Below, piece by piece: positions 11,045 through 14,000 of a stretch of DNA of 64,000 nucleotides. Source of the DNA: Microbotryum silenes-acaulis (Eukaryota > Basidiomycota > Microbotryomycetes > Microbotryales > Microbotryaceae); assembly GCA_003665825.1 (NCBI GenBank), contig QPFY01000013.1, positions 682,001 through 746,000 on the forward strand, written 5' to 3'. The position numbers and the translations under genes were made by a program. The notes under the pieces were generated by a model. That model saw only the letters and a list, made by a program, of their open reading frames with translations. It was not told the origin of the DNA and searched no databases. Every line of letters starts with the position of its first letter. The stretch's first letter is position 1.

Positions 11045-14000
11045 ATGTCTTACGGTCGTCAATCATACGGTTAGTCCTGGCATTTTGTCGTGGCGTGGAA
11101 TGTTGGGCTACCTCGCACGGCCTGCTGCGAAGCCGAGTTTTTGGCTGACGTCTTGGTGCCCCTTTCCCCTGTGCTTGATCTTCCAGGTGGTGGAGGCGGA
11201 GGTAGGCATCTTTACTTATCTTCTCTTCTCGAACCAATCATGTCACCTAGGGCGAATGTGTTGGACAGTGTCATGGATGTGGCTGTGGAGGGTTGTCGCG
11301 AGGGGGGCTCGAGTGGCGTCGAGCCCAGGCCGCTCCGTTGGCACACCCGCCCGGCCGTTCCTGGCCCGCAGACGGCGTAACGCGTCTCGGCCCTGCCCGG
11401 GGACGAGATCGCCACCACGCGCACGCCGTTCGGGAACCAGTTGCAAGGTGGCAACGGATATGAAAGTTGACAAACTCCTTCGCTCGTCTCGTTCACTAGG
11501 TTACGGTGGTGGAGGAGGTGGCTACGGTGGTGAGTTCTGTGCCTCGTCCGCTTATCGTGCGCGTCCCTCGTTGCTGACTCGATACCACGCCCGCCATCTA
11601 TGCTCGTTTTCTCTTGCAACAGGTGGCGGCGGCGACGGTGGATACGGTGGTGGTGGAAGCTACGGCGGTGGAGGATACGGTGGCGGCGGAGGAGGAGGAT
11701 TCGGTGGCGGAGGAGATCGTAGTAAGTAGTCATGGCTCGGCCGGTGTGTGTGCGTCCTCACACGTCGCTGTTGTCTGACCTCGCGCTTCGGTCGCTTTTC
11801 GCTCTTGTTCTACAGTGGGCGGTCTCGGCTCCGGCCTGCGCGCCCAGAACTGGGACCCTGCCACCCTTTCCAAGTTCGAGAAACACTTCTACAACGAGGA
11901 CAAGCGTGTGACCGAGCGCTCCGACCGTGAGGTCCAAGAGTTCCGTCGCGAGAAGGAGATTCAAGTCTTCGGTAACAACATTCCCAAGCCCGTTACCAAC
12001 TTTGATGAAGTGAGTTCGTCCCCAGATCCTACCCATGTACTTTGACCGCCGATGCTAACCAACACTCCCGCCACCACAGATGAACTTTCCTTCTTACATC
12101 ACCTCCGAGATCAAGCGTGCTGGTTTCACGACCCCGAGTCCCATTCAGATGCAGGTCAGTCTTCGGTTGTGTTTCGATCAACTAGCCTCAGCACAGCCGC
12201 TCACCCACGTGAGCTTCTCCGCCAACAGTCGTGGCCCATGGCCCTGTCCGGACGTGATCTCGTCGCCATTTCGGCCACCGGTTCCGGAAAGACGATCTCG
12301 TTTGCTCTCCCCGCCATGATCCACATCAACGCCCAACCCCTCCTAAACCCCGGTGACGGACCGATCGTCCTCATCCTCGCCCCCACTCGAGAACTTGCTG
12401 TCCAGATTCAAGAAGAGTGCACCAAGTTTGGTTCGTCGTCCCGAATCCGCAACACTTGTGTATACGGTGGTGTCCCCAAGGGTGGACAGATCCGCGACCT
12501 CCAGCGCGGTTCCGAAATCGTCATCGCCACCCCCGGTCGTCTCATTGACATGCTTGAGTCCGGCAAGACCAACTTGCGCCGAGTCACCTACCTCGTCATG
12601 GACGAAGCCGATCGCATGCTCGACATGGGTTTCGAGCCCCAGATCAAGAAGATTCTCGAGCAGATCCGCCCCGACCGCCAAACGCTCATGTTCTCCGCCA
12701 CCTGGCCCAAAGAGGTCCAGAAGCTCGCCCACGAGTACTTGCGCGACTTTATCCAGGTCACCATTGGTTCGCTCGAGCTCTCGGCCAACTTGAACATCAC
12801 CCAGATCGTCGAGGTCTGCTCCGACTTCGACAAGCGAGGCAAACTCGTTAAGCATCTCGAGAAGATCTCGTCCGAGTCGGCCAAGGTGCTCATCTTTATT
12901 GGCACAAAACGTGTCGCCGACGACCTCACCAAGTATCTTCGACAAGACGGATGGCCAGCCCTCGCCATTCACGGTGACAAGCAACAGCAGGAACGTGACT
13001 GGGTTCTCAACGAGTTCAAGACGGGTCGATCGCCCATCATGATCGCGACCGATGTCGCTTCTCGTGGTCTCGGTACGTCACTTTCAACTCTCCCCTCGTT
13101 TCCCCTCCCCTCCCCATGCTTTGTGCCACCTTCGTCATGCGGAGCGCTTTGCGCGTCTTGCGCGCGTTCGCATGCGCACTCTCTCCGCCGAGATCTCTTC
13201 TTCCTCTTTACAGGGCCTGTCAACACCCACCTTCAACTCTACACGACGCAAGAACAGACAGACTTGGTTTCGGCGCCTCGTCAACAGCTCCACTTTCGCC
13301 CGCGATGTCTTCCTACTAACGGCTCGAGTCGAAGACGACGGATCACACCAGGCGTCGATGGCGATGTTGGCGCGTTTCTTGCAAGTCGCGGACGGGGTCT
13401 GGAGCAACAAGAGTCTTTTTCATGCGAGCTTTTGGAAGATGCGGCGCATCGTGCCGCTGCGACGTGCTCGAGGCGGCACTTGTCCCCTCGAGTGCATCGT
13501 GCGGTTCGGCGCTACCATTCATTCGCGCGTCTCGTCTCGGTGTCACATTGTCGATGAATGAAGTCGACAATGTGTCGTCGAGACTAGACGCGACGGATGA
13601 GGTCGTCTTCCAACCCGGATTCCCTGTTTCAGGAAATCATGGGGTTCGTCTTCATCCACTTGGGTGACTTCTCTGCCTGCTCTCATCCCTGTTTCGTGGA
13701 GTGCGGAGTAACGCCGTTCAACTTCGACCACCATCGGTCGCGCCTTCTTCACCTTCGTGATCTTGCGCTCTTTGTTCGTCGCCGCCGTCGCCTCCCTTCC
13801 CTCTTCTCCATCTTCACTCTTATTCTTGCTTCCCCCATCCGCATACTTTTCCTTCCCCCCCCCCGCCCATTCCGTGCCTCCCCCTCGACTTCGAGCTTCG
13901 CTGTCTGTTCTTCGCGTCCTTGGTTGTGGTGTCGGTTACAAGTACCAGGCCTTTTCTCAATGAAGAGTGAAAGGAAGAAGGAAGGCTAAGCACGGAGAGG

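Follow-up and report, generated by a model that had tools for sequence, protein, structure and literature searches.

A stable hairpin in the long DBP2 intron of Microbotryum silenes-acaulis and its possible roles

The DEAD-box helicase gene DBP2 was examined in a 64,000-nucleotide (nt) stretch of the genome of the basidiomycete Microbotryum silenes-acaulis (contig QPFY01000013.1, positions 682,001 to 746,000 of the forward strand; assembly GCA_003665825.1, 29.85 Mb in 88 contigs), which is referred to as the window and supplies the coordinates used throughout. A hairpin with a long, nearly continuous stem lies within the longest of the DBP2 introns. The gene, the intron and the parts of the hairpin are located as follows.

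11045–14594, + strand: DBP2 gene, 10 exons, 544 amino acids (aa), DEAD-box helicase of the Dbp2/DDX5 subfamily
13073–14075, + strand: long DBP2 intron, 1003 nt, phase 1, splitting the Asp codon of SRGLD
13520–13599, + strand: hairpin, 34 bp with two 1x1 mismatches, one bulge and a 7-nt loop
13526–13554, + strand: 5' arm as described in the initial annotation of this DNA, confirmed by pair list
13564–13592, + strand: 3' arm as described in the initial annotation, confirmed by pair list
13555–13561, + strand: loop region at the apex, where two frames each meet a TGA stop

The spliced translation of DBP2 runs from a start at 11045 to a stop codon ending at 14594 without internal stops, and the longest exon (12229–13071) carries the Pfam DEAD and Helicase_C matches. 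The protein exhibited 97% identity over 100% of its length to a helicase of Microbotryum lychnidis-dioicae (P0001), and many of the 120 homologous proteins listed are named Dbp2. By sequence similarity, the host gene of the hairpin is a DBP2/DDX5 orthologue. The placement of the hairpin inside a DBP2 intron, as first proposed, was borne out by this identity and by the position of 13520–13599 within 13073–14075 on the sense strand. At 1003 nt, as compared to 70–298 nt for the other eight introns of the gene, the long intron has the exceptional length (~1 kb) of the DBP2/DDX5 regulatory introns. One of the other introns (11202–11499, 298 nt, + strand) has poor splice-site scores and adjoins a 15-nt exon; as these scores are weak, the exon boundaries around it are less sure. 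A strong minus-strand fold (–46.9 kcal/mol) was observed inside this same intron at 11331–11420.

The hairpin was confirmed, and it exceeds what chance would produce. In the pair list, 27 of the 29 arm positions were paired (25 Watson-Crick and 2 G-U, exactly the counts given initially), with mismatches at 13533/13585 and 13543/13575. The minimum-energy fold exceeded these arms, reaching 34 pairs from 13520/13599 through 13555/13563 (30 Watson-Crick and 4 G-U) with a bulged A at 13593 and a loop at 13556–13562. A minimum free energy of –52.7 kcal/mol was obtained for the hairpin as compared to a mean of –26.6 ± 3.1 for shuffled sequences (z –8.34), and none of 200 shuffles was as good. Pairing probability, followed for five pairs, was ~1 in all five contexts of 280 to 1301 nt, including the whole intron (13073–14075), the fold that had been suggested as a check. 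Four stem pairs are not Watson-Crick, and read on the sense strand of DBP2 all four are G-U and none A-C; by simple arithmetic the chance of this split is ~1 in 16 if drift is strand-blind, and the split is therefore a hint, and no more, that the sense-strand RNA matters. The loop (13553–13563; GATGAATGAAG) and the 5' foot of the stem (13511–13530), which carries CATTCAT, share 7 nt of complementarity, and from this complementarity a loop-flank contact between the two segments is possible.

The hairpin was compared to a background of 264 kb, i.e. the 64-kb window and twenty 10-kb stretches from contigs C1–C10. The lowest energy among all 90-nt segments (step 10) on both strands of the window was that of the DBP2 hairpin. 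It was also the sole site with 27 of 29 positions paired in the 264 kb. The next-best sites were at window position 3760 (26), L096 8504 (26) and L104 6728 (25), and the hairpin's own reverse strand scored 25, giving two sites at 26 and two at 25 when strands are counted apart. In twenty dinucleotide shuffles of the whole 264 kb, 27 was never reached, a score of 26 occurred once and one of 25 eight times. On 90-nt energy alone, the DBP2 hairpin was outranked by two GC-rich repeat sites of L095 and equalled by two further sites, one in L095 and one in L109. Of the 12 listed segments with most single-hairpin pairs, 11 were other sites with 34–35 pairs and weaker energies.

Some of these other folds were recorded in their own right. 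The hairpin at 3755–3840 (+ strand) has 26 of 29 arm positions paired, a 16-nt loop and an energy of –46.3 kcal/mol. A very GC-rich hairpin at 10251–10299 (+ strand) has a T run directly after it, and a piece of 75 nt folds at –44.8 kcal/mol; the hairpin apparently lies just beyond the end of the upstream gene and is perhaps a 3'-untranslated-region element. GC-rich units in L095 (5111–7250) and L109 (4151–5210) share an 18-nt string, found in four places and two places, respectively. Some of these units fold as strongly as the DBP2 hairpin and are perhaps copies of a transposon family.

A larger folded domain had been proposed around the hairpin, enclosing a second hairpin and closed by an outer stem with the following halves.

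13331–13339, + strand: 5' strand of the outer 9-bp stem, pairing context-dependent
13602–13610, + strand: 3' strand of the outer 9-bp stem, pairing context-dependent

The outer stem is present and perfect as sequence but proved unstable in context. Its probability was ~1 in the isolated 280 nt (13331–13610), 0.45 in 13300–13650 (i.e. with flanks of 31 and 40 nt) and 0 in each of 13200–13750, 13073–14075, 12900–14200, 13073–13640, 13073–13620, 13250–13640 and 13280–13640. Similarly, the second hairpin (13451–13479) formed alone (8+3 bp, –17.2) but was mostly replaced in the domain fold by a stem at 13453–13505. The block 13331–13610 exhibited a z-score of –7.4 as compared to +1.1 for 13073–13330 and +0.4 for 13611–14075. 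Much of this value is carried by the hairpin, the remainder of the domain scoring –2.2 (13340–13519) or –3.3 (13440–13519), and 120-nt segments elsewhere in the intron reached –2.2 (13085–13204) and –2.3 (13725–13844), with three exonic or near-exonic segments alike. The hairpin was accepted and the domain was not, because the outer stem is context-dependent and the second hairpin gives way. The larger domain, on whose predicted pairs three substitutions of a close relative also fall, was thus not supported and was dropped as an established structure.

Splice signals were scored using models trained on 59 short introns picked by a regular expression; reversed sequence yielded 34 with this pattern and, as the training set is noisy, the scores only guide. 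The sites of interest in the long intron are listed below.

14036–14075, + strand: productive 3' end, branch-like CTCAC (A at 14042) and acceptor ...CCAATAG, acceptor score 3.8
13314–13320, + strand: TACTAAC branch-point match, the only CTRAC of the intron, A at 13319
13627–13632, + strand: TTTCAG, a candidate acceptor within the intron and 3' of the hairpin, score 5.5

The acceptor of the long intron has the lowest score of the nine in DBP2 (4.1–9.0 for the others). Within its final 60 nt the top-scoring branch-like motif, CTCAC, is likewise the lowest of nine at 3.2, with 3.7 for intron 11202–11499, 4.6 for 12155–12228 (also CTCAC) and 7.8–10.7 for the rest. Summing acceptor and branch scores makes the long intron the weakest at 7.0, as compared to 7.8 for 11202–11499 and at least 12.3 for the others. 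The A of the TACTAAC match lies 756 nt ahead of the end of the productive acceptor, and further internal acceptors end at 13213 (6.7), 13287 (6.7) and 13351 (3.2). A premature stop resulted from all four internal acceptors checked (13213, 13287, 13351 and 13632) and from retention of the intron, for which the reading frame would run for 161 codons to a TGA (13555–13557) in the loop region of the hairpin. Intron frames 0 and 2 (13073–13561, + strand) stay open for ~160 codons, each closing at the loop of the hairpin, which is probably a coincidence. A hidden coding exon was considered and rejected, as neither open frame had a Pfam match and a search with the frame-1 open reading frame gave no matches among 13 candidates.

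Protein models from other basidiomycetes provided a comparison for the intron. A model from Microbotryum silenes-dioicae (BQ5605_C009g05677; P0002, 712 aa) translates part of the long intron as 167 residues, presumably a gene-prediction artefact, following intron frame 0 and then frame 1 with the switch at a T run (a one-base length difference if continuous). Ten amino-acid changes were observed over these 167 codons, nine of them outside the hairpin and one in the loop, so that the ~25 arm codons had no change, in a comparison of one relative at the amino-acid level to which synonymous changes are invisible. These sequences agree with conservation of the arms without showing it. Loss of pairing in a close relative, which the initial annotation had named as evidence that would count against its view, was not seen in M. 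silenes-dioicae at this amino-acid level. The CAG of the acceptor at 13351 would be lost in this species (Q to E), indicating that this acceptor is not conserved. Extra translated sequence at or next to the intron site was present in five of the 83 readable proteins among the 120 (P0002, and P0015, P0086, P0115 and P0119 from four other basidiomycetes), starting six residues earlier in P0002 and P0119, and is what a long intron at this site would cause. The position itself is a phase-1 break (SRGL/D), compared here among basidiomycete protein models. A search with the intron segment of P0002 recovered only P0002 itself among 2681 candidates. For the DNA of the hairpin intron, no relatives were found in viral contigs and only bacterial records were present among the best 80 genome-contig loci.

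The tentatively preferred interpretation is that the hairpin acts as a cis-acting duplex within the known regulatory intron of the DBP2/DDX5 genes of yeasts and animals and favours unproductive RNA. The initial annotation had suggested that the intron might be a direct sensor of Dbp2 activity. The corresponding yeast intron is reported to be inefficiently spliced and regulatory (PMC4695336). The hairpin would be a stable intramolecular double-stranded RNA element of the DBP2 pre-mRNA, acting in cis, and should fold as soon as it is transcribed. From the observed weakness of the distal splice signals we infer poor splicing of the long intron in this species, because the true 3' end is weak in both branch point and acceptor and because the internal acceptors lead to premature stops. 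The hairpin may then help to hold the RNA in an unproductive state, i.e. with the intron retained or as a premature-stop product, followed by decay. The outcome would be a low set level of Dbp2, with DBP2 limiting its own output, and binding of the hairpin by Dbp2 could close the feedback loop. That the hairpin directly senses Dbp2 is a fair hypothesis.

Several observations weigh against this interpretation. The 5' splice site of the long intron is good (9.3) and that of intron 11202–11499 is poor (–1.6); the long intron is not the weakest DBP2 intron in every respect. The strong internal acceptors at 13213 and 13287 have no preceding CTRAC. Conservation of the arms is non-significant, since nine changes in the 140 outside codons give an expectation of ~1.6 for the arms and a probability of ~0.19 for none. 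The three M. silenes-dioicae substitutions on predicted domain pairs outside the hairpin (codons 13349, 13443 and 13488) would break these pairs if they are minimal single-base changes, as the amino acids of the partner codons are kept. Sites with at least 24 of 29 positions paired numbered 19 in the 264 kb (strands apart) as compared to 79 in the 20 shuffles, a ~5-fold excess, indicating that such hairpins arise without a helicase gene, by non-chance processes. The mechanism described for S. pombe in PMC4695336 rests on Mmi1 sequence motifs and not on a hairpin. In order of likelihood, the cis-acting duplex comes first, with a neutral repeat nearly equal, followed by a Dicer substrate and then a splice-site bridge.

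It is quite possible that the hairpin is a neutral inverted repeat, i.e. a local inverted duplication in a long and loosely constrained intron that has persisted by chance without an effect on expression. The arms are 79% alike as a self-match, as for a drifting duplicate, and the real sequence is richer in inverted repeats than its shuffles, with three other places in the 264 kb reaching 25–26 of 29. M. silenes-dioicae is too close to reveal constraint, and no Rfam family exceeded its gathering score in the intron. Set against a neutral origin are the rank of the hairpin as best in 264 kb within a kind of intron known as regulatory, the absence of amino-acid changes in the arm codons as compared to nine in the other 140, and the four G-U pairs with no A-C appositions on the sense strand, none of which is strong alone. 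A recent inverted duplication without effect on expression had been named at the outset as a finding that would count against the initial view. A genome search that skips very common words recovered the locus and its own inverse and no further copy. Two other identities were rejected: an origin from a transposon or miniature inverted-repeat transposable element, as the hairpin is single-copy in the genome, and a small nucleolar or other known RNA, as nothing in the intron lay above an Rfam gathering score. The only Rfam match at gathering score in the window was a tRNA at 4885–4957 (+ strand).

Excision of the hairpin from the DBP2 pre-mRNA or lariat by Dicer, either producing a microRNA (miRNA)-like small RNA or destroying the pre-mRNA, is unlikely. 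Two Argonaute (Piwi-domain) loci are encoded in the genome, together with an RNA-dependent RNA polymerase and one frame with two RNase III domains, called Dicer-like from those domains. The sole other RNase III (PF00636) match weakly resembles mitoribosomal mL44/L3 (Pfam mL44 model below cut-off, E 0.001; mitoribosomal chain, E 7e-4), and the Dicer-like protein is therefore the obvious nuclease for a long duplex. A Rnt1-type nuclease was not found in an exon-wise PF00636 search of the genome with the best candidates scored, in which a split gene could be missed. Like the loci of fungal miRNA-like RNAs (milRNAs), the DBP2 hairpin has a stable stem (34 bp, –52.7 kcal/mol) in a genome with Dicer-like and Argonaute genes, but it does not belong to a known Rfam precursor family. 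It is shaped like a precursor, and its closest Rfam matches below threshold were miRNA precursors (E 8e-5 and 3e-4), although the best reached 34 bits against a gathering score of 84 and any long hairpin may give such matches. In human, a miRNA is reported from the DDX5 intron (Moore 2011, known by its title as cited in PMC4695336). Fungal milRNA loci include intronic ones, which arise at a high rate in Cryptococcus neoformans, while fully intronic loci are otherwise described as very rare in fungi in the available text of PMC9757828. Two 21-mers of the 5' arm, searched with up to 3 mismatches, matched the locus itself and, for the first 21-mer only, its own 3' arm. Elsewhere these 5'-arm 21-mers had one and two targets, all with exactly 3 mismatches where ~0.5 each were expected, i.e. 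no genomic target beyond chance. One of the Argonaute loci (C7:1143433-1147474) contained a TGA and a TAG inside a single Piwi match in a six-frame search, and has either an intron there or is a broken gene.

It is very improbable that the domain 13331–13610 serves as a splicing aid, bringing branch A 13319 to acceptor 13632 for an unproductive splice dependent on opening or annealing by Dbp2: the branch-to-acceptor distance would be shortened from 313 to ~33 nt, inside the 5–95% range of the training set (12–37 nt), 10 nt separate the only CTRAC from the outer stem and the acceptor ends 22 nt beyond this stem, the spliced product would stop after 11 codons, the 280-nt region is very stable (z –7.4) and Dbp2 is reported to form as well as unwind RNA duplexes (PMC12247107), but the outer stem had zero probability in growing and larger contexts, the AG of the acceptor is itself predicted to be paired, three M. 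silenes-dioicae substitutions lie on predicted domain pairs and the training set is noisy (59 introns versus 34 in reversed controls). A wider speculation, held to be equally remote, is that long RNA duplexes recur in the DBP2/DDX5 intron, as the 34-bp hairpin here and a miRNA precursor in human DDX5, because the element is a shared readout of nuclear double-stranded-RNA handling, remodelled by Dbp2 when this protein is plentiful and taken by Dicer when it is scarce (or the reverse); if true, one intron would tie helicase dosage to the RNA interference pathway.

Ever since autoregulation was traced to the DBP2 intron, it has been asked how a DEAD-box helicase gauges its own level. A cis-acting duplex, as preferred here, would offer a defined 80-nt element in the DBP2 intron of a fungus with Dicer-like and Argonaute genes, i.e. 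one small and mutable element that could tell structure sensing from sequence motifs as in S. pombe. If neutral, the hairpin is a warning against inferring function from single intronic hairpins. No paper joining 'DBP2 intron' and 'hairpin' was found in the literature collection searched, and the accessible parts of a Ustilago maydis helicase paper (PMC12511879) and of PMC5979547 contain nothing on a hairpin in the DBP2 intron.

Among known systems, the closest is the DBP2/DDX5 regulatory intron itself (i.e. of S. cerevisiae DBP2, S. pombe dbp2 intron 2 and human p68/DDX5), which lies in the same gene, apparently likewise late in the helicase core, and shares with the present intron a length of ~1 kb, weak distal splice signals and a truncated protein on retention. 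Autoregulation of S. cerevisiae DBP2 is attributed to Barta and Iggo 1995 (as cited in PMC4695336, PMC12311795 and PMC5389853), and DBP2, termed auto-regulated, is among the nuclear-degraded mRNAs of this yeast (PMC5389853). According to the parts of PMC4695336 consulted, S. pombe dbp2 intron 2 has kept its position and length in S. cerevisiae and in higher eukaryotes, the intron is spliced inefficiently in various organisms and its deletion in S. pombe strongly raises the mRNA. Unlike the intron described here, the DBP2/DDX5 regulatory introns have no hairpin mentioned in those parts; in S. pombe, part of the effect is due to Mmi1 motifs and decay by the exosome (PMC4695336). The human DDX5 miRNA is a likeness of another sort, a small RNA reported from the intron of the corresponding helicase gene, for which homology is not claimed. 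Fungal milRNA and hairpin loci (PMC9757828) resemble the DBP2 hairpin in being long imperfect hairpins in fungi with Dicer-like and Argonaute genes, and differ in that a fully intronic origin is reported to be very rare there, Cryptococcus neoformans excepted, and that the present hairpin is a prediction from sequence. In yeast RPL7B (PMC12311795), a zipper stem joins the 5' splice site and the branch point, whereas the robust DBP2 hairpin touches neither. The two are alike in that an intron RNA structure can influence how the transcript is spliced and how much product its gene yields in RPL7B, as suggested here for DBP2, which the same source lists as autoregulated.

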